Shown here: positions 16,512 to 61,680 of the stretch, piece after piece
How the letters are laid out: the number at the start of each line of letters is the position of its first letter
Position numbering within the stretch: position 1 is the first letter of the stretch
Assembly (NCBI GenBank): GCA_037951105.1
Contig: JBAMJV010008452.1
Location: 1 to 64,000, forward strand
Direction of reading: 5' to 3'
Length of the DNA: 64,000 nucleotides
Source: Echinarachnius parma
Taxonomy: Eukaryota; Echinodermata; Echinoidea; Clypeasteroida; Echinarachniidae
Position numbers and translations under genes: made by a program
Notes under the pieces: model-generated
The model's input: only the letters and a program-made list of their open reading frames with translations
What the model was told of the DNA's origin: nothing
The model's database searches: none

Positions 16512-16777
16512 CTATGACGTATCGATTAGGTTCCCCTCAAAACCCCCTCCTGATCCACCCCCATTGTTCTGCTCCTCCTCCTCCTCCTCTTCCTCTTCCT
16601 CGTCCTCATCATCGTATCCGTCGGTGAACTGGTCCGAGCGGTCGTAGTTGATGGTGGTCCTCAGGAGGTCGACTTCGATGGGGAAGAGATCCGTGTTCTT
16701 CATCTGTTGGTGGCAATCCTGCAGGTATTGCGTCATGGCCGAGACCAACCGATGTAGCTGGAACACGATGTCTTGCA
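16512..16777 (-). CDS. PICK1: PICK1 last coding exon, full-length copy (9a)
   Basis: Begins VQDIVFQLHRLVSAMTQYLQ after acceptor CCACAG, continues with FPIEVDLLRTTINYD, then an acidic stretch (DGYDDEDE followed by a Glu run), a Gly-rich patch and a stop at 16512-16514. Only this copy carries the acidic C-terminal tail characteristic of PICK1. Two other copies just upstream have acceptors and open frames but end early. Confidence 0.93.
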
Positions 16778-19700
16778 CTGTGGCAAAGGGTGAATACAAA
16801 AGATACAATTATATTAATATATTAATTCAGATCTTTGTCACAAATAATAATTGATGGTGGTCGTAAGGTCGACTTCGATGGGGAAGAGATCCGCGTTCTT
16901 CATCTGTTGGTGGCAATCCTGCAGGTACTGCGTCATGGCCGAGACCAACCGATGTAGCTGGAACACGATGTCTTGCACTGTGGCAAAGGGTGAATACAAA
17001 AGATACAATTATATTAATATATTAATTCACATCTTTGTCACAAATAATAATTGACGGTGGTCGTAAGGAGGTTGACTTTGATGGGGATGAGATCTGAGTT
17101 CTTCATCCGTTGGTGGCAATCCTGTAGGTATTGTGTCATGGCCGAGACCAACCGATGTAGCTGGAACACGTTGTCTTGCACTGTAGAGCAAGAAGAAAAC
17201 AACATTATTAGATCATTCATTTAAATTCAGTTATTTTTCTATTCTGAAACATTTAAGAGGAAGAGGTTCTTTACTGATTGTTTTGCAGCGATCCTGAAAT
17301 GACTCGATCATGGCTAAAACTAACCAATTTAACTAGAACACAATGTCTTGCACTGTGAAAAAGGGTAAATATAAAAGGATAGTTGAGTATTGGTCAAACT
17401 TAACTTTAGTAACAAAAACCTGCACCATTATGGTACAAAGTAATAGTTATAACTTCACCATGCTCGAAAAGTATACACAATTACAAACGACTAAGTAAAA
17501 CTGTGTAAAAAACTAATGTAAAACTGTTATCATTCAAAAAGAGCCGTTACAATTCAAGAGGGCGCTATTTAACAAAAATCATTGGTTTTAGCCTTTTTTC
17601 ATACAAAATTGTGCATTTAATGTTTGTTTAAATAATGATTCAATAGAGATATCATCAACGACTTTTTAAAAACCTATTCTGATTTTGTTCAAAGTAGTCT
17701 TCGAGCATTTTTTGAAATTTTTCTAAAAAGTCTAAATATCGCCCGGTGAATGCCGGGTGTAGATCATTTTGAATAAAAATATATTTATGGATATTTCAGC
17801 CGTTTCTAAACCGATTTTGATCAAATAAAGTTTATTCTGTCATTCAAATTGTATGTTCTTTCGAATTTGACAGTCAGTTTTTCATTATCTCACAAAAAAA
17901 TATCGGGGGGCACTTCGGAAAATACCAATACTCAACACTACCTTTAAGGTAAATCTGTTTCAAAACAAAATTGATTGAATAAGGAGGTAAATTTTGATGG
18001 CAAGTCAAGGGGGAAAAATCTGTGTTCTTTATCGGTTGGTGGCAAAAACATTGTAAAACATACAAATTCTTTAAAAAAGTTTAAAATATAGCGTAAACCC
18101 AGCCCCCCCCCCCCCCCCCCCTCATTGGTCAAAGCTTTGCTATTAACCCCATGACCACGGGAACCGAGTGGGTTGTGTACAAAGTCTATGGAGATTTCAT
18201 AAACTCGTAGGGAACGGGTTAACTGGTGTGATTCTTACCATGTTTTTGATCAAGGAGTTCCAGTTTGACCATGACGTCTGATCTCATCTTGGCGAACCTC
18301 ACCCTGGCTTCCTGACGACACCTTAGCACCAATCTAAAAAAAAAATAACCCAAAACATACAAACGTCATTTACATACAATGTAGAATGATGCGTTTTTCA
18401 TGTTCTAAAAAGGCACAATTCTTGGATCTCCGATCTGATTGTACATCCGACTGTAAATAAAGTATGTACTGATTTATTGTAAAGATCTTTAAAAGATTCT
18501 CTTCATTTTTTGAATAATAAGAGTTCATGGAGGAGAATTTTCAAGGATACATTTCCTACTGTCGAAAAATGCATAACCATGTTCAATCATCTTCATAATA
18601 TCTGATTAACTTTAATACAAATTAATTTGAACACACAAAACTTTTTCTTTGTCCATTTTCAATTTTTAAAGTTTCTGATTAGTTTCCTTTATTTATTTGA
18701 TTGATTTTTATATTTCACAGACATCACACTAACAAAAGAGGGATGTATCATTCATTGCACAGGGCACAAATCATGTTATTATCTCCAAATATATATTTTG
18801 TTTAGTTTCAAAGTGATAAACTACTATGTAGTTTTAACCCCTGAGTTCTGATTGCACATTTTGTTCATATATATATATATACATGTATGTCCATTGTAGA
18901 ATTTGTGAAGATAGTATTGAAGCAAGTCTGTAAATTTAATTATGTTTCCATTCCAAATTCTTGACCCAGGTGCAGAATGTAAAATTTCAGGATGGTTGAT
19001 TTCAAGATAAACAACATTGTAAATTTCACTCCTCTTGTAAATTCTTTAGCCACTTACAAATTGTAACATTTCAGGGCCTGCATAGCAGGTTGTTAATTTC
19101 AGTGTAAACAACTTTGTAAATTTCACCTTGTTCCCATTCTTCTACATTACTTGGCCAGGTTTAGAATGTAACATTTCAAGGCCTGCATACCAATGATGGT
19201 ATGATTTCACTTGACCGCCTTTGGTGAAATGTGCTGTTGACACTTATGTTCTCTTAGCAACAGCAGCTTGTGACACATAACTTTTTAGCCAATAAGAAAC
19301 AAGAAGTATTGTAGCTTGCTACAGTAGCTTATAACGTGAAACTTTTCTGACCAATCAGAATCAAATGCATCAAAGGTTAATTTCGTCTTGACCCCCTTTT
19401 TCATGAAATGTGTTCTTGACATACATTTCCTCTAATAGCAACAGTATATTGTGACAAGAAAAATACAGCCAATTATAATCAAGGACTATGGTGGCTTGTA
19501 ACAATAGCTTATAACATGCAGATTGTCAAGCAAACAAAAACAAAGACAAAATGAGTTCATACACTAATTCTTTTCAGGCAATCAAAAGCAAGAACAATTT
19601 GTTCTTTATACAATTTTGTTGATGCTCGTGAAACAATATCCAAGCTGAAAATTGAAAACAGTCTTTGATTTCCCACATTTATTCTAATTCATGGTTCATA

Positions 19701-22700
19701 CACTTATTGTCAAGCCTAATTCCATGACCATTACTGCAAGAATTCCACGACTTTTCACGATATGTAAGTAAACTAGGTTCTTTTACTTATTTCAGTTCCT
19801 TTTGTACCAAAATAAGTTCAACCATCGTGATTTGTATTTCAAGTTATGAGGAAACATAGATCAAATGGAACTCCCCGACTTTCCACGGCCCGATCATTTT
19901 AGAATTTTCCCCCGACTTTCAAAGCCTGGAAACAAACAAAAAGTCAAATTCCATGATTTTCCAGGCCCTGTGTAATTTGTTTGCTCCCCCTTTTATTTTC
20001 ATTCCACTGGTGTGCTCATATGAATTCAGCTTCCAACCACCAAAGTGATTTTTTCCCCCCCGGCAATAATTCCTTTACATTTTTTAATTTGTTCTTACCT
20101 GTATTCATAGTTGCCAGTCTCTACTCTGTAGAGAGGTTCCCCCAGGGTTGCATAGGCATACTCCTCATCATCCATTTCTTTCACCTTCAGGCAGTACGAC
20201 TGTAAAACAAAAACATTTTGGACATTAATATCCAAAAAAATTCACATTTTCTTCATAACAATTTATTTTTGTAGCTACATTCATAGTTGCCAGTCTATAC
20301 TATGTTATGTATAGAGTTCTTCCAGGGTCTCATACGCATACTCCTCATCATCCATTTCTTTCACCTTCAGGCAGTACGACTAAATAAAACAACAAAAATG
20401 ACATCGTTATCTGAAAGCGATCCACCTCGAAAGAATAGAACAACTTTCTTAACAATGAGAACTCAATATTGTAGTTATATTCATAGTTGCCAGTCGCTAC
20501 TCTGTAAAGAGGTTCCCCAGGGTTGCATACGCATACTCCTCAACCATTTCATTCACTTCAAGCAATATGAAGTAATGAACAAATCGGACATTATTGATCA
20601 AAACATTCCACCTAAAAAAAATAGAGAATGACTTTAATGAGTTTATTTTCATAGATACATTCATTACAGAGGTTACCTGTCTATTTAACAATGGCCACTT
20701 GTCTTGTTTCCCTTAGGTGATCACTATACAGGTTTGACTGCTTCAACATTCAAGTCAAACATTGAAATATACTTTGTCAAGACTGGAGCACTCCTAGGCT
20801 GTAACAATCATTCCCTTCCAAATAATTCCATCTAGTGCAATACTCAACATAAAATCAGTGCATTATCTCTTCTAAAATGACTGGGCAAAAGACAAAATAT
20901 CAAGAAATGATCTTAATAAATGTTAACCCATTGCCTACGGGAACCTGGTGGGTCCTGTATTAACTTTATGGGGATTGCAAAAACTAGTAGGGAACCAGTT
21001 AAGAATGAAACTCACCAGGTACTCAAACTTGGCATCAGCATACTTCTTGATTGTGAGTTTTGTATCCGGGATCGCCTTCGTGAGGAAAGTGCCTAGGTCA
21101 GACAGCATCTGTGGATAAAACAAAATCATTATTACCCTTTGACATATATTTAAAACAGGGAATAATATATTCTTACCAATGTAATCCATGTAACATACAA
21201 TCACCTGGATTTGAAAATGATTTGCATTCAACACTTTGGTAATTTGGTCTGTCAAATTAATTGTTAGGATATGTGGTATATTTGCTTTGAAATGGTTTTA
21301 TTCTAAAAATAAAACCCCTAATTAGGCCATTTGTGGCTTTAAAGGGTACAACTAACCAAAAATAATATTCTTATAAATGAAAGGTAACATCTTTAGTAGT
21401 CCATTCCACCAACAAGTTCAGAAAAATATGTTTCCAGAAAAAATTATATACTTGGAAAACGCATCACCATTATAAAGCATGCGTTCATGGGTCTGCATAT
21501 ATGAAGACTACCTTTGTCCAGGTCGAACAAATCATCTGGGATTCTATTGTCTCCAAACGTACGCATCAATAGAATTGGCGCACTCTCAGACGTTAAGCCC
21601 ATACAGAACCATCAGATAATGATGGTTCCGTAAGTAAGGGTAATTCATTGTATTGTTTATGAATTACACAACCCTTTGCAAAGTGTTGAGCATCTATTTA
21701 ATATCACACAACGGTACCAAAACATATAGTTATATGCCTGGTGGTCCCCTTTAAATTAAAGACATTTGTTCAGGTTTAGCTTCTCGATATGAATCTTTGG
21801 CAGAGTTTGGCTCATATCAATAATTTAGGAAGATTTTGAATTGGAAGAATTCTGCAGTGTACTCACTAGAAGCAACCAAGGAATTACAACAAATATATCA
21901 CAACTTTAATACACACATTACCATAAAGTTCCACAACTTTGTTTCCTTTTAGGAAGAGAACTTGTAGTACTCACTGGCTTGACTGTTCGAAGAAGTCGGA
22001 TGCCAAACTTCTCCATGTTTCGATGGGCATCACCAAACTTTGTGAAGGCTTCGCTTGCCTTGGGCTGAATCTCCCTGGAACCAATCACGCAGAACAGGTC
22101 ACCAAATGCTGTAGTCAGATAATCAAAATCAAGATTGAAAAAGAATAATGAAATAAAAGTTGCACAAAACGTCACTGTTATGGTGATCAGGTCACCAAAT
22201 GCTGTAGTCAGATAATCAAACTCAAGATTGAAAAAGAATAATGAAATAAAAGTTACACAAAACGTCACTGTTATGTTGATCATTGCTAAGTAGAAGCTTC
22301 AATCGCTTTTGGCTGAATCTCCCTAGCTCCGCTCTAATCACGCAGAACAGGACACCAAATGCTGTTATATATATGAATCAGGGTTGAATAATAATAATAA
22401 CGTCAAAATTACACGAAACAACCATGCTGCAGAGCTTAGTTCCAAAAGGTGCTAAATCAATTTTCCATAAAAATTGAGTTAACGATATCAATACATTAAT
22501 AAGCTACGTAGCTATCTAGAAATCGAATATTTAGGACTTTTTACACAATCAAAATCAAAATATGGAACGTTTCACTTTTAAATTCCCATAGGCATGTGCA
22601 CAAAGCTGGGCAAAGAAACCTATTTGTCTCGAAAGTTGAAAAAGTGGATTTAGCGCCTTTTGGAATTAAGCTCTAGGAAACGATAATGTCCATTTATAGA

Positions 22701-25700
22701 AAACTAGATAAATCTTGAACTATGCGCAATTGAAACGGATGCCTTCACCATTTGCAATGTTTATAATGAGTTTATAAAATGCCTTGGGCATATATATATA
22801 TTAGCTCGTTAAAGGGTACCACCACCCAAAAATAATTTTCTTATAAATTAAAGGTAACATCTTTAGTAGTCCATTCCATCAACAAATTCAGAAAAATATG
22901 TTTCCAGAAAAAAATATATAATTGGAAAACGCATCACCATTTTAAAGCATGCATTTATGGGTCTGCATGTACGAAGACTACGTTTGTCCAGAGCGAACGA
23001 ATCGTCCGGGATTCTATTGCCTCCAAACGTACACATCAATAGAATTGGCGCACTCTCAGATGTTAAGCGCATACAGAACCATCAGATAATGATGGTTCCG
23101 TTAGTGAGGGTAATTAATTGTCTTATTTATGAATTACACAACCCTTTGCAAAATGTTGGGTATTATTTGATATCACAAAATGGTACCAAAACATATAACT
23201 ACATGTATGTGTTGTTCTTTGCCTGGTGGTCCCCTTTAAAGCTAATTTTCATTAATTCAAAGTACTTTTAGGACAAATGCCAGGGAAGTGACATACCTTT
23301 GTGAGTGCACGCAGTCTCAAAAAACATCTTGAGCAGTTTCTTGGTGTGATCCATCAGGCCCTTGTACAGTCGGGATGTCCTGTTCAGTTCATCCAATCTC
23401 TTTATTAGGACATCTAGTAGGAACGAGCAATCAAAGAAAAAATGGTGAGTTTAGATTTCAACCAAGCAAAGAAGGATGACAAACATTCAACATATAACTC
23501 ATGAACATGTACAGTGATGTTAAAGAGATGATCACTTTATTAAAATTCAATCTAAGTAGACTTGAGAAAAATTATATACCTATTTAATATCCTTATTGTC
23601 TGTTGGCTGTCAATGAGTTCATACCTTCCAACATAAGATTCTTGACTTACACGTACTTCAGAACCAAAGACCAACTAACCCAAAAAATACCATAATGATG
23701 GCAACTCAAAATTAGAACCAACAAACTAATCCCTTTACACTCACCACTGCAGAGAATGGCCCTGCTCAGACTCAGGGCATCAGCTGTCGATGAGCTCATG
23801 TTCTCCACCATCCGATGCTTGACTTACTTCAGAACCAAAGACCAACTAACCCAAAATCAATTCCTTTTAAAGGACTTCAGGACAAAATACCAGAATGATG
23901 ACAACTCAAAACTAGAACCAACAAACTAATCCCTTTCCACTCACCATTGCAGAGAATAGCCCTGCTCAGCTGTTGATGAGCTCATGATCTTCAGAACCAA
24001 GGACCAATATCTCAAGAATTAATTTGTGTTCTTTCACACGTGACCAACAATGGCAACAACTCAAAGGACCGATAAGTATAATGATGCCAACTTTTAAGAT
24101 AAATAACACATCTGTAGGACAGTCGAACCCTTTCACTCACCATTGCAGAGAATAGCCCTGCTCAGACCCAGGGCATCGGCTGTTGATGAGCTCATATTCT
24201 CCACCATTGTTCAGAACCAAAGACCAACTACCAAAGAAATAATTACTTGTATGCCAACTTGTAAGATTAATAACACATGTAGGACAGTCAAACCCTTTCA
24301 CAAACACTTTTACTCACCATTGCAGAGAATAGCCCTGCTCAGACCCAGGGCATCAGCTGTCGATGAGCTCATATTCTCCACCATCCGATGCTTGACTTTC
24401 TTCATGACGATGTCAAGGCCCTTCGCCTCCTTCGTGTCTGCTCTCAGGTTGTTGTAGCTGATCACAACCTCACCCTGAAAAAGTAGAAATGGGGGAATTA
24501 TGTTATCTAGTAATGAAAGAAAACAAATAAGATAAGGCGTCTACAAAAATACATTACAGTAATACCTCAGATCTAACACACTTTTATGAATTTCCCTAAG
24601 TACTAAGTTTAAACCAGAGAAAATTGCTCTAGTTCATTATCATTGTCTTTTTTTGTTTATTGAATTATACTATTTTTAGATGAATTTATCGTGAATAAAT
24701 CATCATTGATATAATACCAAAGTCCAGATTTTAGTTCTTGATGCATACTATTCAAAATTAATTTACAAATGATGTGATTATATTACTTTTCATCTTACCT
24801 TAATTGCTTGTATCATTCTGGCCACTTCCACCTTTGTTCTCCCCTTCACAGACTTCTTGTTGACCCCTACAACCTCGTCCCCAGCGTTCACCATCTTGCA
24901 CTTGGATGCGGGGGTGTTGTCAAACACCTGTACGATGTAGAGACAGGGGCAGAGGGGCGCCCCTCCCCCAATGCTGATACCGATCAGGTTCTGACTGTCC
25001 TTCTTGAGGGTGACCGTCCCTGGGATGGCCTCCATACCCCTGCAGAAATCAATAAACAAGAGTAAAATATAATATTATCTAGGAAATATCTCGTGAACAG
25101 AAAACACCTGTAGCGAGAAAGGGGCATAATAGGTCCACTTCTCCCAAGACCCCAGACGCCGATAAATAAACCAGTCAGGTTCTGACTGTCCTTCTTGAAG
25201 GTCACCATTCCTAGGATGGCCTCCATACCCCTTCATGAATCAATGAGAGATAAACATTATAATCCATTAACTTGGACATACTTGTTCATGTTGTGAACGG
25301 AAAACGATAATGTAGCTAATAAGGAGCAAAATAGTTCCCCTCCCCCAACCAATCAGGTTGTAAATTTATGTCTTTTGACTGTTCCTGGGATGGCTTCAAT
25401 ATCTCTGCAGGAATCAATTGATACAAGGGAGTAAAACAATATAATACATTAACTCAGAAGAACATGTGAACAAAAAACTACTGTAGCTAATAAGGAGCAA
25501 AATAGTTCCCCTCCCCCAACCAATCAGGTTCTAAATTTATGTCTTTGAGGGTGTTCCTGGGATGGCTTCAATACCTCTGCAGGAATCAATTGATACAAGG
25601 GAACTCAGAAGTACAAATGTGAACAAAAAACAACTGTAGCTAGAGAGGGGCATAATAGTTCCTCTCCCCCAATGCTGATAACCCAGTCAGGTTCTGACTA

Positions 25701-28592
25701 TCCCTCCTGAGGTTAACCGTTCCTAGGATTGCCTCAATACTCCTGTTTGAATCAACAAAACGCACATTTTAGATTAAGAGTTCTCAGATTTATTGGAAAT
25801 TATTCACCTGTAGTGATGTGTCAAAATGGGCACAGCCAAATTATGGAGCAACACCCAATTAAATAAAAACTGTATTCAGATGTCAAATAAGACTAAAATT
25901 TGAAATTTTAAAATAAAATACAACAAAATAATTGTTAATAACTGATCACAATCATCACCACAAGAATTGTAATCATCCTCATTATTCCCTTTCTCAAATT
26001 TTTTTTTTTTTAATGGTTTTTTATGATTTTTATCTAATACCATTCTGTATGATTCAGGCAAATTAAATGCAATCCCCTAAATGTTAAGATTAGAAGAGAA
26101 AAAAAATACTCCAAATATTATGAATATATATAAAATACATTTACAGGTCCATTATCTTTCATGTGCATGTATGTTCTGATATTGTTACGCCGTCACACAG
26201 TGCTCAATTGAATTTTCAGGTTCAATTTCAAATACCATATCAGCCTGACAGTGTATCGTACTACTTCACTATGCAAATATATGCAGTCTATAATATTTCA
26301 TAAAAGTTGAAGGATAAACTGAAAGAATTTAATTATATATGCTGAACACCCTCTCAATTGAAATGTATGTACTCTTATGTGCAAACAAAATTCAACCATC
26401 TGAAAAATTACTGAATTCACTATGATGCAATACAATGAAAAATGCTGGTATGTAAAATACATAATAAATACCCCCAGGTATAACATTCAAATGGGTGGTT
26501 CCAAAGTGCACATTTATTTTAAATCAAATAATGCCAAATTTTGGAACCTTTTTACTTCAAATAAAAGTCCCAAGTTCCAATACATTCAAGTCAACTCAAG
26601 GTTTTACACTAAATTACGAAAACGATTTTGAGCAATTCATAATATAAACTGAAAGCATTGACAATGAAAACTAGAAGGCCGACAAAGTCAGCATACCCAC
26701 GCCTCCCATTAGCCCTGTTCTACCCCTTCGTCGGCCTCAACCCTGTTTTGCTTACCGCAGGCTAACCAGCGCGTTTTAGGCACGATTTGGTGAAAATGCC
26801 TAGGCCAGGGTGTAGGCCGCTTGCTTGCGGCGCGGCAGCCCCATGGCGAGGCAGTGTACAAAATTATTGACAACGAGAATATATCGTAAAAACACCTGAA
26901 TCATCCAAAAATGTAAGTTTCCAAAGTGCACCCTACTTCCGATTGCTCGAAAATTTGAGATTTCAACAAAGTTCACTGCGAAAATGCGGCAAAAAATGAC
27001 TTACGGAGGTTGAAATTGGTCGAGTTTCTCGATTCAAAACACGAACCGGATCTATAATCATCGCAAGCATCTCTTGTGTATACTTCACATGCATATTACG
27101 TGGTTCAATCAGCTGTTTGACCGCATTACATTTGGAAAAATAGTATATCCCTCCACCCTTGCAATAGCGAAGTTGCATTGCCCACAGCCAAACATCGCGC
27201 AAACTACGTGTACAAAAATATGGCCCATGCGCGCACGCCATGTAACGCCGAATGACGATGCCTAATTAAATACATACTCAAACTTCAAGGTTCCACAGAA
27301 TTTGCAGGGGTCAACCAATCATCACCAAAATCTAATCGATTCTTCCATGTCACTATCCAAACATTCCCTGAAAATTTGGTGCAAATCCGTTCACCCGTTC
27401 TCTAGTTATCTTGTACACAAACAAACAAAAAAAAACAAAAACAAACAAACAAACAAACAAACAAACAAACAAACATACGGAACCCTTTACATAACCCCCT
27501 GCCGATTTCATCGGCGTGGGTAATAATATACATATATATGCACATAATGAACACAGATCTACAGTATTCATTCACAGACTAGCAAGAATCGTATGCCATA
27601 CTACCAGCTACCACATCCAATTGTTAGGCAAAATTATGAGCAAAATCGAAGTCCTCCATTAACCAGTCTTGTTGACCATTTTCCTTGTAACATTACAGTA
27701 AATTTTTACATTTTAAAAACATTAAAACAAACTTTACAGGCTTATTTAAGCAATGCCCAAAGTTGAAGACTTGAAGTGCACAATCCTCTGTGAGTTCAAG
27801 GCAGAGTGAACAAAAATGTCAAAGTTTGATAAACTTGTATAGTCCGCAGCAAGACCAGAAGAAACCCAGAAAAGGCCACAAATAAACTGTAAAAATTGGT
27901 CGGGAAGTAAGTCACAGAACAGTAAGTAATATAATCTTCAATACGACTATGTACACGAAGTAATGCACAAAATCAGCGAAGTGATAGAGCTCTGCTGTGC
28001 ATAACTTGCAGTACTGTATTTGTTTTGAGCGTATTGTATGAGTGTAAGGGTCGGAAGAAAACCAAATACAATGCCACTAACAAGTTTGTTGGGAAAAATA
28101 TGTTGAGCAAAATCGATGAACCAGAGAGGCGGGAGTCCCTCCCACCACTGATCTGGTTCAACCAGTACCGCTTTTGTGTACTGTACATTATTTGTAATCT
28201 CTGTTGAATCTACATACTACAGGTAATACACTGTATGTACATGTACCTATGTAGGCCGACTAAACAAATTATAATGCAGTACTGATAGGAAGATTGCACT
28301 GATAGGGTACAAATAGCAACCAAATGCAATAAAGAATCTATGTACCTTTCTGAAAGTTAAATAAAGTCTTTTATCTCTATCTATGATTATCATCCTGTAG
28401 CTAACTTCCAGCACACAAACACTCAACACATACACACAAATGTATGCACACACAAGTTAAGTTCAGAAATTAAACCATGTCCTATCAAACTATCTATAAT
28501 TTCTTATTCATTTAAAAATAGATCGCCCAAACTTACAGCTTATCTTCGCACGCTGCAAATCCGTCTGGAGTTTTTATCACTTCGACAGGCAT
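16512..28592 (-). CDS. PICK1: PICK1, PDZ and BAR domain trafficking protein (9 coding exons)
   Basis: Coding exons in gene order: 28592-28537, 25039-24799, 24474-24318, 23413-23297, 22108-21975, 21108-21016, 20199-20099, 18333-18239, 16777-16512. They join in phase into 1260 nt, 419 residues (human PICK1 is 415). Family role: a peripheral membrane adaptor whose PDZ domain binds receptor and kinase C-termini and whose BAR domain binds curved membrane. Seen here: PDZ about residues 26-105 with KKDSQNLIGISIGGG, including the Lys-Asp pair at 32-33 that the family uses in ligand binding; linker VKHRMVENMSSSTADALGLS; BAR region about 150-360 with AIPDTKLTIKKYADAKFEYL and RLVSAMTQYLQDC; acidic tail of Asp/Glu ending NLIDTS. 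All introns are GT-AG. Start chosen because exon 1 ends EDKL, which continues as GMEAIPG as in the family. Several exons have extra partial copies nearby. It faces away from CLUAP1. Confidence 0.95.
16838..16977 (-). CDS. PICK1 alternative last exon copy 9b (in frame, short C-terminus)
   Basis: Near-identical to exon 9a over its first ~110 bases, with the same acceptor and the same phase. The reading frame stays open through MKNADLFPIEVDLTTTIN and then reads YYL and stops at 16838-16840, so it would make a PICK1 lacking the acidic tail. It is 200 bp upstream of 9a. Could be a genuine alternative terminal exon or simply a recent tandem duplicate that is skipped; no poly(A) evidence was seen. 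Confidence 0.5.
17038..17180 (-). CDS. PICK1 alternative last exon copy 9c (in frame, short C-terminus)
   Basis: Third copy of the last exon, 203 bp upstream of 9b, acceptor CTCTACAG, open frame with a few replacements (NVFQ, IPIKVNLLTTTVNYYL) and stop at 17038-17040. More diverged than 9b, so older or less constrained. Would also remove the acidic tail if used. Confidence 0.42.
17278..17352 (-). pseudogene. Decayed copy 9d of the PICK1 last exon
   Basis: Starts at a CACAG acceptor with VQDIVF, then an in-frame stop, then recognisable LVLAMIESFQDRC. It lies 172 bp upstream of copy 9c and directly borders a TTAA-type transposon insertion at about 17371. Confidence 0.7.
17371..17947 (+). mobile_element. 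TTAA element, GTTGAGTTTTGG family, copy C
   Basis: Right TTAA at 17944-17947; left end AAAAGGATAGTTGAG with an eroded TTAA. Inserted between copies 9d and 9e of the PICK1 last exon, so it post-dates that ladder. Confidence 0.8.
17980..18062 (-). pseudogene. Most decayed copy 9e of the PICK1 last exon
   Basis: The plus strand shows an eroded version of the same exon (shared TGTGTTCTT and TTGGTGGCA blocks). It is 926 bp from the matching point in copy 9c; removing the ~574-bp transposon between them leaves about 352 bp, i.e. two ladder steps. Confidence 0.55.
18239..18333 (-). CDS. PICK1: PICK1 coding exon 8 (BAR region)
   Basis: Encodes LVLRCRQEARVRFAKMRSDV and MVKLELLDQKH; acceptor TTTTTAG, donor GTAAG. 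Phase joins exon 7 (Arg split) and any of the three intact exon 9 copies (Val split). Confidence 0.95.
18955..19560. repeat. Two sets of intronic tandem repeats (PICK1 intron 7)
   Basis: 18955-19195: three units sharing GTAACATTTCA(A/G)GGCCTGCATA and AACAACTTTGTAAATTTCAC. 19205-19560: two ~190-bp units sharing CAACAG(C/T)A(G/T), GTGACA and AGCTTATAAC. Confidence 0.65.
19725..19980 (-). repeat. Dispersed 'GGAAAGTCATGGAATTT' repeat, copy in PICK1
   Basis: Minus strand: CACAGGGCCTGGAAAATCAT, AATTTGACTTTTTG. The same family is at 58682-58925 in CLUAP1 intron 10 on the plus strand. Confidence 0.6.
20099..20199 (-). CDS. PICK1: PICK1 coding exon 7 (BAR region)
   Basis: Encodes SYCLKVKEMDDEEYAYATLG and EPLYRVETGNYEY; acceptor TTTTACAG, donor GTAAG. 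Two disrupted copies lie upstream at about 20279-20379 and 20474-20570. Confidence 0.95.
20279..20379 (-). pseudogene. Broken copy of PICK1 exon 7 (first)
   Basis: Acceptor TTTATTTAG and SYCLKVKEMDDEEYAY are kept, then small indels put a stop before the tyrosine-rich end. 180 bp upstream of the true exon. The donor region reads ATGTAGC instead of AGGTAAG. Confidence 0.8.
20474..20570 (-). pseudogene. Broken copy of PICK1 exon 7 (second)
   Basis: More diverged copy 191 bp further upstream; keeps EEYAYATLG-like codons but has lost the acceptor, part of the acidic run and the frame. Confidence 0.75.
21016..21108 (-). CDS. PICK1: PICK1 coding exon 6 (BAR region)
   Basis: Encodes MLSDLGTFLTKAIPDTKLTI and KKYADAKFEYL; acceptor CCACAG, donor GTGAG; 31 whole codons. 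This is the strongly conserved basic segment of the PICK1 BAR domain. Confidence 0.95.
21339..21754. mobile_element. TTAA element, GGTACCACC family, copy 1
   Basis: TTAA at 21339-21342 and 21751-21754; short inverted ends AAAGGG(T/G)ACCACC-like. In PICK1 intron 5. About 90% like the copy at 22809-23239 by eye. Confidence 0.85.
21975..22108 (-). CDS. PICK1: PICK1 coding exon 5 (BAR region)
   Basis: Encodes AFGDLFCVIGSREIQPKASE through MEKFGIRLLRTVKP; acceptor CTACAG, donor GTGAGT. A 93-bp unit that includes its acceptor is duplicated almost exactly immediately upstream. Confidence 0.95.
22189..22281 (-). pseudogene. Recent 93-bp duplicate of the PICK1 exon 5 acceptor region
   Basis: Nearly identical to 22096-22188: the CTACAG acceptor, the first ~13 exon bases and intron sequence are repeated with only a few differences. 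No donor, so not a complete exon; it could compete as an acceptor. Confidence 0.85.
22300..22370 (-). pseudogene. Older partial copy of PICK1 exon 5
   Basis: Shares the GCTGAATCTCCCT, ATCACGCAGAACAGG and ACCAAATGCTGT blocks (plus strand) with exon 5, but has a 5-base insertion and a changed acceptor. Confidence 0.75.
22431..22674. mobile_element. Small inverted-repeat element, GGCGCTAA family, copy 2
   Basis: Inverted ends AGAGCTTAGTTCCAAAAGG and CCTTTTGGAATTAAGCTCT, about 28 bp. Lies in PICK1 intron 4. Confidence 0.75.
22809..23239. mobile_element. TTAA element, GGTACCACC family, copy 2
   Basis: TTAA at 22809-22812 and 23236-23239; ends AAAGGGTACCACCACCC and GGTGGTCCCCTTT. In PICK1 intron 4. 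A fragment of its right end is at 32570-32612. The short open frames inside are not convincing. Confidence 0.87.
23297..23413 (-). CDS. PICK1: PICK1 coding exon 4 (BAR region)
   Basis: Encodes DVLIKRLDELNRTSRLYKGL and MDHTKKLLKMFFETACTHK; acceptor CTACTAG, donor GTATGT, phase 1 at both ends. It aligns with the first BAR helix of the family. No duplicate copies were seen beside it. Confidence 0.93.
23745..23826 (-). pseudogene. Copy of the 3' half of PICK1 exon 3 (third)
   Basis: Keeps VKHRMVENMSSSTADALSLS-like codons and GTGAGT; 200 bp below the second copy. Its upstream edge coincides with the same point in the exon as in the other copies. Confidence 0.8.
23945..23990 (-). pseudogene. Copy of the 3' half of PICK1 exon 3 (second)
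   Basis: Shorter, with an internal deletion in the ADALGLS codons; donor GTGAG kept; 196 bp below the previous copy. Confidence 0.75.
24141..24212 (-). pseudogene. Copy of the 3' half of PICK1 exon 3 (first)
   Basis: Retains ENMSSSTADALGLSRAIL-like codons and the ATG|GTGAG donor, 177 bp downstream of the true donor. Lacks the 5' half and an acceptor. Confidence 0.8.
24318..24474 (-). CDS. PICK1: PICK1 coding exon 3 (end of PDZ, linker)
   Basis: Starts GEVVISYNNL after a TTTTTCAG acceptor and ends LCN plus one base before GTGAGT. Contains the VKHRMVENMSSSTADALGLS linker. Its 3' half and donor are repeated three times downstream, at lower coordinates. Confidence 0.95.
24799..25039 (-). CDS. 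PICK1: PICK1 coding exon 2 (PDZ domain)
   Basis: Begins after a CTGCAG acceptor, ends IQAIK before GTAAGAT. Carries nearly the whole PDZ fold, including the carboxylate-binding loop with IGISIGGG, the CPCLYIVQVFDNTPAS strand and the GRTKVEVARMI helix. Four decayed copies of its 5' end lie upstream (higher coordinates). Confidence 0.95.
25165..25230 (-). pseudogene. PICK1 exon 2 5'-edge copy 1
   Basis: Contains GMEAILGMVTFKKDSQNLTG-like coding; the acceptor CAG has become ATG-rich. 191 bp upstream of the true exon 2 acceptor. Confidence 0.8.
25340..25404 (-). pseudogene. PICK1 exon 2 5'-edge copy 2
   Basis: Diverged copy with CTGCAG acceptor retained; 174 bp beyond copy 1. Frame broken in the KKDSQNL segment. 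Confidence 0.7.
25511..25576 (-). pseudogene. PICK1 exon 2 5'-edge copy 3
   Basis: Very similar to copy 2 with which it shares flanking intron; CTGCAG acceptor retained; 172 bp beyond copy 2. Confidence 0.7.
25665..25742 (-). pseudogene. PICK1 exon 2 5'-edge copy 4
   Basis: Most distant copy, 166 bp beyond copy 3, with the acceptor lost but the SQNL(I/T)G and NADT-like blocks recognisable. Confidence 0.65.
26650..27540 (-). mobile_element. Dispersed repeat with (CAAA)n tail in PICK1 intron 1
   Basis: Reads on the minus strand as GGGGGTTATGTAAAGGGTTC, (GTTT)n at 27418-27476, then TACAAGATAACTAGAGAACG. Similar organisation at 63330-63520. Widespread family in metazoans; class uncertain. Confidence 0.5.
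28537..28592 (-). CDS. PICK1: PICK1 coding exon 1
   Basis: Encodes MPVEVIKTPDGFAACEDK plus two bases of Leu19; donor GTAAGT follows. EDKL joined to GMEAIPG in exon 2 matches the family's EDKLG junction, which fixes the exon and the start. The residues before EDKL do not resemble the vertebrate N-terminus, so an upstream alternative start is possible. A 5' UTR exon was not identified. Confidence 0.8.
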
Positions 28593-28599
28593 GCTTATC

Positions 28600-30800
28600 G
28601 TCTGAGCAAATCTCGGTCGACTAATGAGCACTGTTTGTACAGGTACGCAGACAAATGTCTTCAGAAGTTTTAACAGCTCAAACTATACATGTAGTTCCTG
28701 CAATTTAATCCTTGGAATGTTTATTTTGCACTCTGGTTGAGTTTTAACTTGAAGTTTGTTTGTTTGAAAATGCCAAGTATGTGTGTTCTACAATGCAAAT
28801 ATCAAGATGACTATTAAAATTGCTCACTATTTCACATTCTTGCATCTTTTTGGAATTGAGAATTTCCACCACAGTCATGTTACTCTCTGACCCATATCAC
28901 TTATCATAGGCCTCACTTTTTGTTGTTGTTTTCTTATTTAAAACAATGTTCCACGTTAATTTCACAGTAATGGTAAGTTGGCAGATCGCTGATCGTTAGC
29001 AAATTCCCAAACCTCGCAATAAAAATGACTAATTGCTTTAAATAAACATCATACAGAAGATTTATGAAGAGCTTATTTTCAAACATCTCCTATTGACTGT
29101 CTAATATGATAATATGAATCGCCGATCCTCATCTGAATACATTGTAGATGTTGGTGCCACCATCAAAACAAATTGAATTGATTTCCACCACTCCGCAACA
29201 AATTAGCAAACGACACTGTTTCGATGATGTAACACTTCACAGTTCAGACTTTTGATCACAATTCCTTGCAAATGAAAAGTGTCCAGGACAAGCACCAACA
29301 AAAACAGCAAACAAATATAAATCAATCTTGTTTTAATCCTTGTTTTAAACTCCTTGTTTTAAACTCCTTTCAATGCACCTTGCCCAAATTAAATGGTTGT
29401 GACACTATCAGTATCAGTTACTATTGCTGGCCAACAATTACAGTCAACATTTCACAGCTTACAACTGTACATATAAGCAAGGGGAACTACCATACAACAT
29501 ATTATACACAAGTTGTACAGATCAACACTTGTTTCAGAAATGCGCTGGTAGACAATCAATACCAAACTGTCTCTCCATGCCAGAAGACAAATCATGCATT
29601 GTTGAGTTTGAAAAAAAGAAACTTTTCAAAGCCTCTGCCTTTACAAGGACTCTCTGGCACTTCACAATAGGGCCAGGCACATGATCAATAGAGCTTGGAG
29701 TGGGATTCCATACAGAGCTAGTGGAATGGAAAGGCTAATTTCTGTTCCAAAGAGTGAAAAAAGCTCACAAAGTATGCAAAAGGCATAATGCACTGAATTG
29801 AACTGCAACTTGGGTGTTTTTTTTTTTGGTACTATGTACATGTATGTTGTAAGCTGTACACTGCAAAGTCTGTATGCTGACAAAAATTGTTTGTATTCAA
29901 TAGAGCATGACAAATCTTCATAATCCCCAACATGACTTCATCAGAGTGTGTGTTAAATCATGGACCCTTCTAGTACGGTCCATGATTAAATTAACAGAAG
30001 ATTGAAAACAGCATTCAGACGAATAAACAGACACGTTAGTAGTAAACAATGAAGAACTATTTCAAGTCTATTTCGTACAGCAATACATGTGTATGATCTC
30101 CCCTATTGAAGGTTCAAATCCAAATGAGGTTAATTACAAGCGTGAAAAATGAAGAGATTGTTTTCATTTGAATTTATTGATTTATATTTACAGTAGGACA
30201 GGAAAAAAAAGAATAAAACAGACTGATATTCGATACCATACAATATGACATGTGCAGTCAGCTGCAAGTAATGTATACACTTGTAATTTATGCTGTTCAT
30301 ATGGTGTTTTTTATTACTGCATATTATACTATGGGAGGGTTTCCAGTAGGAGCAATGTCATGTAAAGTACAATGTACGTAGGTATTGCTGGTAAATATGA
30401 CAGATGTTACATGTATATAGAAAACAAGAGATCGAGAGAGAGTGAGAAAACAAGCTAACTAAACAGATAAACAGAGATATAAAAAGAGAGAGAGACACAT
30501 AAACACAGACATCTCGAGAGAGAAAGTGTTACTGAAAAAAAAATCTATGTGTTAAATACATCATTGTATGTATCTGTAAACACCTCATTCATGCATGTAG
30601 ATCAATATCTCTCTTGCAATTACATCATAAAAAGGGAACAAACTGAGATAAAATTAGTCAACAACTTATGGTTTACTAATATCAGTCCCAAAGAATCCAC
30701 ATTACATGTACTACCATAAACAGGTTTCACTTTGGACAGTGGGGGAAATAGGCAAAATTGTTGTTTCATCATTATTTCCTCTTTTATCATCATGTTTTCT
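28600..30800. other. Upstream of PICK1, no gene recognised
   Basis: AT-rich; would include any PICK1 promoter and 5' UTR, but no TATA, initiator or CpG island is distinctive. Two overlapping open frames at 29266-29684 resemble no known protein. Confidence 0.35.
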
Positions 30801-30806
30801 AAAAAT

Positions 30807-31490
30807 ATGCTATTTATGCAGGGCAAGTCGGTAACGTGTATATATGAAACTTGAGGTTTTTATTTCACTTGATAAATGCCACACAACTATTTCAAACAAA
30901 GTCTGGACCTCCTTTACTTTTCTCCTGAAAAGATGTAAGATACAAAATGCTTAAAAAAATAATCTTGTCCAGATTCTGTGGTTTATAATGTCAAAACTTG
31001 ATTAATTTCTTTACAATTTTAAGTCAAACGATTTCAAACCTAAATGCTGGACCCCCAGCATTTTCTCCTGTCCAGTCAACACTCCATCCAAGGCGAATTT
31101 CAGCCAGATGCAATCTCAGTTCACATCTCCTCAGCACCAAAGACTAGTGCTGTATATTTGTGCAGGGCAAGAAGGCAACATATAACTTGACTGACCAAAA
31201 GGTTTTATATACCTGTATTTAATAACATGATTTTTTTTATGTCACTTGATAAATGCCACATAACTATTTCAAAAACAAAATAATAATAATAATGATAATA
31301 ATATATTATTGTCCAGATTCACTGTGGTTTATAATGTCAAAACTTGATTTAATTATTGATAAAAGTCACAACAATTTCAAACCTAAATGCTGGACCCCCA
31401 GCATCTTCTCCTGTCCAGTCAACATTCCATCCAAGGCGAATTTCAGCCATTAAGCTGAAATCTCCGTCTGCATCTCCTCTCTTCATCACT
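30807..31490. repeat. Tandem duplication, unit ~345-370 bp
   Basis: CTGGACCCCCAGCAT, CTCCTGTCCAGTCAACA and CACTTGATAAATGCCACA occur in both 30866-31095 and 31239-31450. No coding content. Confidence 0.8.
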
Positions 31491-31944
31491 TCAGCACCAA
31501 AGAATTATATGACCATTTATGAGTCCAATTTAAGAGCCCCTTTGCCCTACTCTCCTTCTGCAGTTTTTTCAGAATAGATCATAATGGATTCTTGCTCCAA
31601 AACAGCATTTACAATGAACAATGCTGATAATGCCCTCTACATGGTCCAGCACCCTCAACAAAATTAGATTGTTTGGTCCTCTTGGAAAATACAGTTTATA
31701 ATCTCTAGTCTATGTTGATCACTGACAAAGCAATGCACACGCCTAGGGGGCCTAGGGAGATTCAGCCCCTTCAAGATGTGAAAAGGAGCCCTCAAAATGA
31801 CATAAAAGAGTCACCAAATTTAAATGATGTTCACAAAATGGGACTCTAAAAAGCCATTGAAAACTCACTGCGATGAATGATTTCACACAGACACAGAACA
31901 GTACTTCATTCAGGCCTGGTGCCAGAAAATATAATTTAACAAAA

Positions 31945-33165
31945 CACATTTTTTTCTAAGATCGACGCCCATTGCTTGTTTTTTTTTTGGCATTTTCTAT
32001 TTATATCTATAGCACAATTTATTATAATCACCTCAAGGCTCAAGCTACCCCATCAATCTGCACATGTCTGCTTCCTTGTCAGGCCTCATCCTTCTTTTAA
32101 TTTGAAACCTTAATCTGGTGGCCCCAAACAAAGAAAAACATTGAACATTCTCTTAAATGTGGCTGCCCGTTGCCCCGTTTGGCATGTCAAATGTAAGCAT
32201 TATGAAATGTTGGTGGTCTGAAGCTAAATTTGTAATGCCCCCGGGCCAATGAGCCTGTGCTAATTTCAAACATTGCAATTATGCAAATACAATACAATTT
32301 TACTATAAAATGCCAGTCCAAAAAAAAAAATTGGGGGGGGGGGGTGGGGAGGTGCCAATGAAATTTGTGAGGAAATCAATTTACTGGCCCAACCAGGCCA
32401 CTAGCTAGTACAATAGTTACTGTTGAGCCCTGATGGATTGTATCATTGTAGGAATGAAAATGCAATCATTACCAATCTCTAAGACTAAGAGGACAAAAAG
32501 TTGGAACCTTCTAAATAGTAATGTAAACAAAAATCAATATGGAAAATACTGCTGAAAACTGCAGAAACAAAACGGTACCAAAATATATAATTATGTGTTG
32601 TTCTTTGCCTGGTGCCCTTTAACAAAAATACATTTTTTTCTACGATCGACGCCCATTGCTTGTTTTTTTTTTTTTGCATTTTCTATTTATCTATAGCACA
32701 ATTTATTATAATCACCTCAAGGCTCAAGCTACCCATCAATCTGCACATGTCTGCTTCCTTGTCGGGCCTCATCCTTCTTTTAATTTGAAACCTTAATCTT
32801 GTGGCCCCAAACAAAGAAAAACATTGAACAGTGGTTGCCCGTTGCCCGGTTCGGCATGTAAAATGTAAGCATTATGAAATGTTGGTGGTCTGAAGCTAAA
32901 TTTGTAGTGCCCCCGGGCCAATGAGCCTGTGCTAATTTCAAACATTGCAATTATGCAAATACAATACAATTTTACTATAAAATGCCAGTCAAAAAACAAA
33001 ATTGGGAGGGGGGGGTGGGGAGGTGCCGATGAAATTTGTGAGGAAATCAATTTACTGGCCTAACCGGTTGAACCGGGCCACTAGCTAGTACAATACTTAG
33101 TTACTGTTGAGCCCTGATGGATTGAATCATTGTAGGAATGAAAATGCAATCAACAAAAAGTTGGA
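31945..33165. repeat. Tandem duplication, unit ~685 bp
   Basis: 31948-32470 recurs at 32634-33165 with few differences (GATCGACGCCCATTGCTTG, TGGCCCCAAACAAAGAAAAA). Each unit contains a GGCCCG-family repeat; a fragment of the GGTACCACC element lies at the junction (32570-32612). Confidence 0.88.
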
Positions 33166-35769: not shown

Positions 35770-36470
35770 CACATAGCCAGCGAGCGGTACCTTTCGCGAA
35801 CGATAATGTATGCATGACATCATTGATCGCGTGCGCACGCATCTCATTACGAGACTTGGCTGGCTTCTGGGTCGGTTATGCATGCCATGAAAATGTGGTA
35901 TCGGAGCGGTATCGGTCTGGACATAGCACAGGGTTTACCCTTTTCGCTGCATTCTCTTCCCACAATTCATTTCGATGCTTACGTCATTGGCTTTCTGAAC
36001 GCCCATTCTACACGATGATACCAAATTCGTTACGCTTCTCTTTGGACTAAATCTTGTGAAAGAAGGTCTTTTTCACCTGCCGTTTTTCGCCAAAATGGAT
36101 TTTGAGCTATTCGGGATGCCGTTTATAAGGTAAGTTTTCAATATTTCGAAAAATTTTGTATGTGAAAGATGATAATTTTTCGAAAATCTACATGCTTTTT
36201 TCGATCGGTTCGTAGACATTTTCTTGTGTGCGAGTGTTGATAACGTTGTTGACATGGGCATTATGCATGGTTTTGCAGTTTCGATATTTTTTGCCACACA
36301 GCTATCGTCATACTTTTTTGTGCATGCACTCGCGCTCTGCACGTGTGCGTGGTGCTCGCCTCATAAATTATATTCATATTATTTTCATGCGCAAGCGCAC
36401 TTCGGCTGTACAGGCGCTCGGCGAAGCCATATAATGGGAATACACGTTGAATGGGACAGTTGGCTATGTG
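35770..36470 (+). mobile_element. CAC-ended element with 5-bp TSD, copy 1
   Basis: CACATAGCCA at the left and its inverse TGGCTATGTG at the right; exact CGCGG on both sides (35765-35769, 36471-36475). Inside: ACGTCATTGG (CRE half plus inverted CCAAT), then ATG at 36095 reading MDFELFGMPFI and an AG|GTAAGT donor at 36129/36130. 5-bp duplications and CAC ends are the signature of the Transib/RAG-like superfamily; a transposase is absent, so this is non-autonomous. Confidence 0.75.
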
Positions 36471-36520
36471 CGCGGCCGTCGAGTGTCAGAAAATGAACGC
36501 ACACAAAATCTCACTCTCAC

Positions 36521-37238: not shown

Positions 37239-37370
37239 TAGATCGACAAATCTATCGCTTTCATGGCCTTTTTGACATTATTATTGTTATTTTCACTGCT
37301 AGAATGCCGACAGTGAAAATAACAATAATAATGTCAAAAAGGCCATGAAAGCGATAGATTTGTCGATCTA
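37239..37370. mobile_element. Palindromic foldback element, 9-bp TSD, copy 1
   Basis: Arms of about 59 bp, TAGATCGACAAATCTATCGC onward, almost perfectly inverted around a ~13-bp loop; flanked by exact CGTTTTAGC (37230-37238, 37371-37379). 9-bp duplications and long inverted repeats fit Mutator-like elements. Confidence 0.92.
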
Positions 37371-41975: not shown

Positions 41976-42028
41976 ATATAAATAATATGAATGCTTACCT
42001 CATGCTGGCAACGGCAGTGCGAGGTCGA

Positions 42029-44880: not shown

Positions 44881-44955
44881 CAAAACAATATGCTGCTTCG
44901 ATCGCTTCTGAGTTCGACCCGACTTCGTCTTCGTGCCAGCTACCCTTGTGACGCC

Positions 44956-45112
44956 AATAACCGCGAACAACCGCGGCCGAACAACAGCCAACTTATTTAC
45001 CGCGAACAACAGCGAACTCATTTTCCGCGAAAAACAGCAAACAACCGTGGACCACGTACCATGGAACAACAGCGAAGAAATTATTCCGTGATATAATTTA
45101 CCGCGAACAACT
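44956..45112. repeat. Irregular minisatellite of ACCGCGAACAAC
   Basis: Seven or so variants of (A/T)CCGCGAACAAC(A/C)GCGAAC over 157 bp. Not coding; spacing irregular (16-30 bp). Confidence 0.65.
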
Positions 45113-45275
45113 GTGAAGTGATACAATGTGATGATACAGCTAGCTCTAGCTCTATGCATGCCATGGGTGAAACCATGACCCAATTATCAAACAAAGTGAC
45201 GATGTCAAATTGAACTAGGAATGTAGGATTTTCCGGCGACACTAACTACAGACTAATTAATTGCGGCATTGCTCC

Positions 45276-45921
45276 TTAAAGGGGCCCTGCAACCCAAATG
45301 CATGTTGACCTCTGTTCATCTGTATCAGTGTACACATTCAATATTTGTAAACGGTTTGACCCAAATATGTTTTGTATATTTTTAAACATTTTATCATTTA
45401 TTTGTCTTCATGTTGCTAAGCCCCACCTCCTAAAAAACCCTCCAGAGCAAATTCTATTGTTGACCTGCAGTGACATCATTTGTCAATCACTGGTCAGCTA
45501 CCATGAGATTAACAAAAGATGAAAGTACAAAAAGAACATCCACACAAAAGCATGCCCTGCATACCTCCATGCAATAGCTTAGACATTGCTTTTCTTCTGA
45601 CATAGCAACAGCTATTGTAATTGAAGTTGTGTGAGTTGGTATTCTATTCAACCGTGTGATGCTATTGTGATTAGGCTAATCACAATAGCATGGTAGCTGA
45701 CCAGTGATTGACAAAATGATGTCACTGCAGGTCAACAATAGAATTTGATCTGGAGGGTTTTTTAGGAGGTGGGGCTTAGCAACATGAAGAAAAATAAATG
45801 ATAAAATGTTTAAAAATATACAAAACATATTTGGGTCATACCGTTTACAAATATTGATTGTGTACACTAATACAGATGAACAGAGGTCAACATGCATTTG
45901 GGTTGCAGGGCCCCTTTATAA
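45276..45921. mobile_element. Large foldback element with ~240-bp arms
   Basis: AAAGGGGCCCTGCAACCCAA at the left is inverted at the right; arms of ~240 bp match closely (both translate to HVDLCSS(V)...YT(F/I)NICKR). Left TTAA at 45276-45279; right side reads TTATA, so the target site is eroded. The ORFs are only the arms read outward. Confidence 0.88.
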
Positions 45922-46810
45922 ACAGATAGCCTACAACTGGGGGGGGGGGGGGGGGGGGGGCGGTAGTGGCCCCCGCAGTCCGTCCGTGATTTCCTCCGCG
46001 GCTCCCCCCCCCCCCCCCCGGCCCCCTCGTCGAGGGGTCAGAATCACAGCAGAACTGGGGGAGGGGGCGGAGTTTTCCGTCATCATTCCTCTCCTCCCTC
46101 CCCCTCGATCACCGTGAGAATGTTGTCAGTTTGTTATTTGATGCTGCATGCTGCTTCAGTTTTCGGCGTGTAGATATACCGTTTTCCCGATGTAACTTTG
46201 TTTTAATCGCTAACTTGTTTAATGACGGTATATTTATGTATTTTATGTATTTATATTTGGCTGCTGTGTAAATTCCACCTGATACAGGTCCCCCTTTTTG
46301 AGCAAGCCTTCTACCCATGTGTTTTTATTAAAAAGAAGACTGAATAAATGAATAACAAATAATTTCACACGACAGCCATAATTGTCATAATAATAAAAAT
46401 AAATTAAATAAAAAAGGCTTAAATGGCCCGGCCCCAAGCCTGAAAGATCCCTCTGTTTACAATATGTTTTTCTTAATTTTGTGTAAAATTTATTTGATTT
46501 GTAATGTTTTGTTGGAAACAGGAATAAAATTTAAATTGCAATAAAAAATAAAATTAAACAAATGTAAACCTATAGGCCTACCCACCAACCACGGCTCCCA
46601 ACGAAATGCGCGGTTTAGCTCGGAGATTTGAGATTGGAAGATGGGAGAATTCCATTAACATGTTTAAGTTTCGCCTTTTTTTCTTTTATCATGTTAAACA
46701 AATTAACCAATCCTCTTCTAGTCACTGGAAAGTAAATACAGAAATTACGACAAAAGTTATACCCACCCGTGTCCATCAACCTCTCAAATGGACCCTAACG
46801 TCGAAAACTT

Positions 46811-46885
46811 GTGGACCTGAAAAGGTACCCTTTTTGTGGACCTGAAAAGGTACCCTTTTTGTGGACCTGAAAAGGTACCCTTTTT
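46811..46885. repeat. Perfect 3 x 25-bp tandem repeat
   Basis: GTGGACCTGAAAAGGTACCC plus TTTTT, three exact copies at 46811, 46836 and 46861, just upstream of CLUAP1. Confidence 0.95.
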
Positions 46886-47179
46886 GTGTTTTTTTTTCTA
46901 ATGAGTGCTGAAAACCACCCCTTTGGAAAACGTCGACGACGCCGTATAGCTGAAAATAATACCCTTCCCCGGGGGGATCAAAGTTGTGCCACTGATGATA
47001 ATTCGGGCCATAGAGACGTATTTATACAATTAACTCTATTTTTGTACAATAAGTATGTTTAAAATAATTATTTTCATTATCAACCACCGTTGTATAATTT
47101 TCTAGATGCAGAGCCTGCTTTTTGTTTTCGCGCTCTAGCTCGCGCTCTAGCTTTGTATTAAATGTATAGCGCCATCTAC

Positions 47180-47195
47180 GTTGGCATAGTGTAAC
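47180..47195 (+). promoter_or_regulatory. Weak RFX X-box-like site upstream of CLUAP1
   Basis: GTTGGCATAGTGTAAC, 40 bp before the start codon, resembles the two-half-site X-box used by RFX factors at ciliary genes, but with at least two mismatches. Family knowledge: CLUAP1 orthologues are ciliary, often RFX controlled. Position fits; sequence match is imperfect. Confidence 0.25.
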
Positions 47196-47235
47196 TATAG
47201 CAGCATATTTTCGCCGCAAAGTCAAATTTTCCAAG

Positions 47236-60796
<13,561 letters not shown>

Positions 60797-60951
60797 GTCA
60801 TGCGACAGTCATGTCTGAAATCGATGAACTTTGACTTCTATGTCCTTTACATTCTAGGTCTTGACTTTTGACCTTTGAACTTTGAACATATTTTCAAGGT
60901 GCAGGCCTTTGGCCTTTGACCCCCTTGTTCTGTGAACAGATTATTTCAAGA

Positions 60952-60957
60952 AATAAA
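60952..60957 (+). terminator. Poly(A) signal AATAAA of CLUAP1
   Basis: AATAAA 156 bases after the stop codon. The homologous position in the next repeat unit reads AATAAC, so only the first unit has the signal. Confidence 0.6.
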
Positions 60958-60978
60958 TGCAATTCAAAGTAGACTAAA

Positions 60979-61680
60979 GACAGCAATGATGACTTCTAGG
61001 TCATGCGACATTCATGTCTGAAATCTTTGAACTCCATGTCCTTTACATTGTAGGTCTTGACTTTTGACCTTTGAACTTTGAACACATTTTTCACAGGGCA
61101 GGTTTTTGGCCTTTGACCCCCTTGTTCTGTGAACACATTATTTCAATTGATGAAATAACTGCAATTCAGAGCAGACGAAAGACAGCAATGATGACTTCTA
61201 GGTCATGCGACATGCATGTCTGAAGCCCATGAACGTTGAACTCCATGTCCTTTACATTGTAGAAAGGTCTTTGACTTTTGACCTACTTTTTCTGTGAATG
61301 CACATTATTTCAATGGATGAAATTCCATTCAGAGCAGACTAAAGGTCTTTGACCTTTGACCTACTTTTTCTGTGAACGCACATTATTTCAATTGATGAAA
61401 TTCCATTCAGAGCAGATTAAAGGTCTTTGACCTTTGACCTACTTTTTTGTGAATGCACATGATTTCAATTGATGAAATTCCATTCAGAGCAGACTAAAGA
61501 CAGCCATAATGACTTCTAGCTCCTTTTAGGTCATGTGACACTAGTGACTTCTAGGTCATGTGACACTTAGGACCTCTAGTACATGTGGCACTTGGAACCT
61601 CTAGGTCATGTGATATTTCTGACTTCTAGGTCATGTGACACTTGTGACTTTTAGTGATCACTTATAAGTAGTGATGCCCA
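60979..61680 (+). repeat. Tandem copies of the CLUAP1 stop region and 3' UTR
   Basis: GACAGC(A/G)ATGATGACTTC plus stop recurs at 60979, 61181 and (altered) 61499 after the true one at 60776: steps of 203, 202 and 318 bp. Between the last two, an ~80-bp subunit with GGTCTTTGACC is repeated twice more. At 61510-61660 a short unit of CTTCTAGGTCATGTGACA is iterated five times. Confidence 0.9.

Follow-up and report, generated by a model that had tools for sequence, protein, structure and literature searches.

Why should the exons of two conserved animal genes be lined with partial copies of themselves? The original prediction for this sea-urchin locus was that exon after exon carries such copies at steps of about 150-206 bp, and that they arise by a genome-wide process of tandem duplication at roughly nucleosome-repeat length. 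We analyzed the window, i.e., the whole stretch of 64,000 nucleotides (C8437:1-64000), and searched the assembly to which it belongs (1.2 Gb in 14,790 contigs) for similar structures. The two genes are located as follows.

16512..28592, minus strand: PICK1 gene, 9 canonical exons, intact 419-aa frame.
49309..60796, plus strand: CLUAP1 gene, exons 2-11 located, end of exon 10 approximate.

Exons were mapped by tblastn with three sea-urchin proteins together with splice sites, which placed 19 exons, 9 in PICK1 and 10 in CLUAP1; tblastn with the sea-urchin proteins gave no match to CLUAP1 exon 1 in the window. Spliced without any of the copies, the canonical exons of PICK1 yield a complete 419-residue reading frame, whose best protein match is from Lytechinus variegatus (89% identity over 421 aligned columns). 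CLUAP1 exons 2-10, with the approximate end of exon 10, form an open frame that agrees with other sea urchins, the best protein matches being from Strongylocentrotus purpuratus and then Diadema; because that end is misplaced, the frame breaks where exon 10 joins exon 11. No structured RNA was found in the window by Rfam at gathering scores, and no tRNA by ARAGORN.

A self-BLAST of the window returned 70 direct-repeat pairs (offset 40-1500, score at least 22), against a mean of 0.1 pairs per window in a control of 20 block-wise dinucleotide shuffles. The alignments bore out the predicted list of exons with extra edge copies: 10 of the 19 mapped exons are accompanied by diverged partial copies of themselves, mostly head-to-tail. 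Arrays with a step of 80-260 bp touch nine of these exons, and the tenth, CLUAP1 exon 4, belongs to a more widely spaced pair. In PICK1 the arrays are the following.

16645..17377, minus strand: acceptor-edge ladder of exon 9, edge plus 3 upstream copies, steps 200/203/172.
18920..19544, no strand assigned: tandem arrays in intron 7 without exon contact, steps 84/186 and 177.
20086..20664, minus strand: ladder of exon 7, with 2 copies of almost the entire exon, steps 180/191.
22048..22425, minus strand: acceptor-edge copies of exon 5, steps 93/160.
23606..24404, minus strand: donor-edge ladder of exon 3, 3 downstream copies, steps 200/196/177, GT kept in 3 of 3.
24941..25800, minus strand: acceptor-edge ladder of exon 2, 4 upstream copies, steps 191/174/172/166.

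The 93-bp step at exon 5 was absent from the original description. Its unit is young, and a microhomology of about 5 bp could be read at the breakpoint of this unit only (98 matched columns). The arrays of CLUAP1 are listed in the same way.

48933..49387, plus strand: acceptor-edge ladder of exon 2, 2 copies, lying 206 and 407 bp upstream of the exon.
52991..54075, plus strand: exon 4 (53969-54075) and its copy (52991-53095), 978 bp apart.
54540..54790, plus strand: donor-edge ladder of exon 5, 2 units in the window.
55002..55427, plus strand: tandem array in intron 6 without exon contact, offset 138, top lag 147.
56898..58083, plus strand: acceptor-edge ladder of exon 9, 8 units, steps 149/174/98/186/154/156/156.
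60765..61522, plus strand: exon 11 array, the last 32 bases of the frame including the stop plus downstream sequence, 203 bp.

Part of the CLUAP1 exon-9 unit (57637-57714) has many matches in the genome at about 80-91% identity, among them an array of ~70-bp units on contig C4171, and a dispersed repeat seems to have been caught within this ladder. Other repeats lie elsewhere in the window. Four self-complementary stretches (45277-45918, 37239-37370, 47775-47914 and 59478-59646), 84-94% identical to their own reverse complements, look like hairpin-type transposable elements; a 0.7-kb element occurs twice in opposite orientation at 92% identity (35770-36470 and 47947-48641); and positions 873-1268 are a 396-bp array of the pentanucleotide TTCTC.

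By our reading of the alignments, acceptor-side copies occur at seven exons (PICK1 exons 2, 5, 7 and 9; CLUAP1 exons 2, 4 and 9) and donor-side copies at two (PICK1 exon 3 and CLUAP1 exon 5). The copies are direct and contiguous, the alignments running through whole units in most arrays, with two exceptions: in the window, the match at CLUAP1 exon 5 extends over half a unit, and the copy of exon 4 stands at a distance from it. Steps were measured by mapping the splice-edge base through each alignment. Exon steps range from 93 to 206 bp overall, with 20 of the 23 splice-edge steps in 150-210, and nearly all of those predicted (e.g., 191/174/172/166 and 200/203/172) were recovered almost to the base; for CLUAP1 exon 5 the step was 166 by splice edge and 170 by BLAST offset. 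The intron-6 repeat, predicted with periods of 139/147, is real and lies near 55.0-55.4 kb. The description of each copy as one exon edge plus adjoining intron held for most exons, but not for CLUAP1 exon 11, where no intron is involved, or for PICK1 exon 7, which is copied nearly whole. At its distance in the window, the CLUAP1 exon 4 copy, whose match begins about 4 bp inside the exon, does not belong to the ~150-206-bp series in which it had been placed. A 595/3 periodicity claimed at 37.4 kb reduced to a single 59%-identical pair at 595 without a clear sub-period (best lag 212 at 3.4 SD; 198 at 2.6 SD).

A second copy of CLUAP1, on contig C272, carries the same ladders as the window, with whole-unit differences at two of the five. 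The exon-5 ladder has four units on C272 and two in the window, and the exon-9 ladder nine and eight, respectively. The main units at exons 2, 4 and 11 show no clear difference in number between the haplotypes; C272 has more occurrences of a short piece of the exon-11 repeat. The exon-4 copy lies 149 bp from its exon on C272, with about 829 bp more between them in the window, and at exon 2 the gap separating copy and exon is wider on C272, by about 390 bp. The differences in exon-5 and exon-9 counts and in exon-4 spacing indicate that units come and go. The second exon-5 unit of C272 equals the functional unit of the window at 167/167 aligned bases, plus a 3-base gap, although it is a spare copy there. 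Another exon-5 unit of C272, 12% diverged from the other units, has no counterpart in the window, pointing to a loss, and two adjoining exon-9 units are 99.3% identical, suggesting a recent gain. Short duplications apparently continue to occur and to generate spare splice sites. For PICK1, a genome search with the exon-9 ladder found no second haplotype. In CLUAP1 introns, two further stretches of the window, 51199-52935 (1.7 kb) and 49579-50140 (~560 bp), are absent from the other haplotype and represent insertion/deletion polymorphisms; the latter matches a repeat found also at 10.3-10.9 and 17.4-17.9 kb.

Similar arrays occur beyond this locus. Across 13 random regions of the genome, 119.6 kb in total, there were 29 arrays with a step of 80-260 bp, or 0.24 per kb, a count in which two arrays enter twice from one region that seems to be internally duplicated. 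A kinesin-motor profile search of the assembly gave 130 exon matches, with, by reading, at least five partial copies of the same profile within 350 bp of another match (contigs C10331, C4289, C12482, C1423 and C1406); four of the five recur as DNA repeats. Arrays touched 8 of 20 kinesin exons, taken in order of profile score from 16 contigs, compared with 86/600 (14.3%) of segments drawn by resampling within 16 random regions (p=0.0045). The touched exons fall on six of the 16 contigs, with three of three touched on C4289. The 20 kinesin extracts hold 19 arrays, 11 of which are without contact to an exon, and array density is higher in these extracts than in the random regions. The segments C12482:46327-46727 and C1423:20151-20701 are a presumed haplotype pair of a kinesin gene; the exon copy lies ~167 bp away in one and ~332 bp away in the other, perhaps a unit-wise difference. 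The random-region arrays, the kinesin exon copies and the unit differences between haplotypes agree with the prediction of a genome-wide process that makes short tandem duplications.

The ladders probably stem from short tandem duplications that continue to arise in genic DNA, with selection acting as a filter and preserving their traces at exons. According to this model, DNA-level tandem duplications of ~80-260 bp would arise at many genome sites. Where a duplicated segment spans an exon edge, the complete exon would be kept, and the adjoining intron would gain a partial copy and a splice site. Duplications inside an exon are assumed to be purged. Edge-spanning ones would survive, and they would be recognizable for longer than intronic ones because the exon copy is held by selection. 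Slippage or unequal exchange would then add or remove units, giving ladders with allelic copy-number differences. The tandem structure, the intact PICK1 frame, the broken frames in the copies, the haplotype polymorphism and the occurrence in other genes were observed directly, whereas we infer the filtering by selection and the molecular step, which may be replication slippage, flap or break repair, followed by unequal exchange.

It is also conceivable, if rather doubtful, that exons are themselves mutational hot spots for tandem duplication of ~150-200 bp in this germline, through exon-tied base composition, gene-body methylation, positioned nucleosomes or Okazaki-fragment ends. In the span of the two genes, nine arrays touch exons and two to three others do not, a count stable to dust and threshold settings. 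Random placement of 12 such arrays predicted 5.45 exon-touching ones against the 9/12 observed (p=0.017). In forward simulations of uniform duplication, purging and decay, exons were touched by 23-26% of arrays under four settings, and by 31% or 41% if exon-derived copies decayed 2 or 4 times more slowly; the observed share of 75% was reached in 0/360 runs, a contrast inflated by the choice of the window for its striking look. Slow decay of exon copies as the cause of the exon excess in the window was therefore not borne out by the simulations. The kinesin count likewise lies above what the passive simulation model would suggest. Steps are nearer 150-206 in exon-touching arrays (8/9, compared with 2/10 of the others; p=0.005, with values and cut entered by hand after the data had been viewed). 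By analogy, FEN1-linked inverted triplications have been described in yeast and tumours, with breaks close to the midpoints of nucleosomes and to Okazaki termini (PMC13334657).

Other tests argue against hot spots. When exons were rotated, nine were touched against 5.66 expected (p=0.056), nine edges were spanned against 9.1, and one whole exon was covered against 3.76 (p=0.058 for so few). In the kinesin extracts, 12 of 40 flank segments were touched, no different from the exons (p=0.31), so that exon edges are not clearly preferred. As the window was chosen for its look, i.e., is a selected sample, we do not take its exon excess as proof of targeting. Similarly doubtful is the wider proposal that exons are germline hot spots at ~150-210 bp, with near half of them carrying a polymorphic, self-derived ladder of spare splice sites that would continuously provide, across the genome, the material from which exons could shift and introns arise.

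A further, improbable alternative is that the copies are retained because they function as decoy or alternative splice sites. The splice dinucleotides (AG/GT) are kept in 22 of 23 mappable copies (25 tried), but 19.3 would be expected, and at p=0.087 this gives no clear sign of selection on them. In 19 older copies, conservation is higher in the splice core (-5 to +8; 222/246) than in the body of the exon (697/853; Fisher p=0.001), in a test whose cells are not independent, the copies being related, and in which gaps inflate the contrast. Comparison of copies with exons gave a dN/dS of 0.31 (bootstrap 0.25-0.37; the copies share ancestry). In simulations of a neutral copy beside a constrained exon, the median ranged from 0.40 to 0.56 with the transition rate. 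Differences in the intron parts comprise 66 transitions and 115 transversions; as transitions are not in excess, the appropriate neutral median is that at the upper end, 0.56 (0.42-0.79). The observed dN/dS is clearly below it, which counts against strict neutrality; faster synonymous change in exons is one possibility. In-frame stops are not depleted: there are nine, in 8 of the 24 copies, compared with 3.6-4.8 in the neutral-copy simulation. The copy-number differences between haplotypes at two ladders and the absence of the GT donor from both copies of PICK1 exon 7 also argue against retained splice sites.

Sequence decay in the copies was assessed on trimmed local alignments. Across 24 copies, identity is 87.9% in the exon part and 85.1% in the intron part, and in 18 older copies 85.6% and 78.7%; because the alignments are trimmed and local, the intron identities are if anything too high. 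Higher identity in the exon part is what constraint on the exon side alone would produce. In our view the copies are non-coding debris that shows a weak hint of constraint. Duplicated alternative exons were rejected as an identity for the copies, most of which have one edge only, given also the stops and the donorless copies of exon 7. Intron gain by tandem duplication was rejected as well, since the canonical exons of PICK1 alone give the full frame without a new intron.

The predicted link to nucleosomes, by which breaks in linkers would duplicate one nucleosome repeat, is very improbable. The clustering of exon steps within 150-210 and a hump at 150-240 in the random regions (12 of 22 contiguous arrays) are in its favour. 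However, exon steps of 93, 98 and 149 are also present, and the spread is broad, with a hump from about 60 to 300 overall; 21 of the 22 random-region arrays have a step below 300, and 8 fall in 150-210. Published sea-urchin repeats measure 218 bp at the gastrula stage and 240 bp in sperm (PMC12961432), values that may not be those of Echinarachnius parma. The nucleosome reading is not supported because the ladder steps lie below them.

An assembly artefact, in which allelic or repeated reads were joined as false tandem copies, is hardly credible even in an assembly with uncollapsed haplotypes (C272 beside C8437), because the CLUAP1 ladders recur on the second haplotype, with partly different counts, and the copies differ from their own exons by 2-27% in the exon part, with private indels.

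If ongoing short tandem duplication acts genome-wide, it would be a running source of duplicated splice sites for conserved genes. Such a source is invoked by theories of intron gain and exon shifting and could be caught in progress here, and the haplotype differences make the birth and loss rates of units measurable. The ladders are also a warning for gene-prediction pipelines: partial exon matches beside true exons may be debris. A full-text literature search, screened by titles and the starts of abstracts and covering few subscription papers, listed no account of sea-urchin exon-edge ladders among its matches.

Several known systems resemble the ladders in part. With mutually exclusive exons, too, the neighbouring intron contains exon sequence a second time; unlike these, the ladder copies are mostly partial, one-edged and often frame-broken, and number up to nine units. 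Minisatellites and short satellite arrays consist of head-to-tail monomers of ~100-250 bp whose copy number is polymorphic between haplotypes. The ladders share the head-to-tail order and the polymorphism in unit number, but have 2-9 units per locus, and the unit of an exon ladder is local gene sequence (that of CLUAP1 exon 9 being found partly elsewhere too). Sp185/333 is an immune multigene family of sea urchins flanked by simple repeats (PMC5103432); it likewise combines repeats and duplications in gene regions of a sea urchin, whereas the genes here are conserved ones. Inverted triplications tied to Okazaki-fragment maturation measure 148/160/148 bp on average (PMC13334657), so that their unit, like that of the ladders, is near 150 bp. 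Their middle copy is inverted, whereas the sea-urchin copies are direct, and the resemblance is an analogy for, not evidence of, a possible origin through replication in this genome. Intron gain by tandem genomic duplication, in which an exonic segment containing AGGT is duplicated and a new intron appears (PMC3443670), is likewise a short intragenic tandem duplication that multiplies splice signals. In the ladders, unlike that process, one end of the segment is intronic, and the canonical exons splice without the copies.
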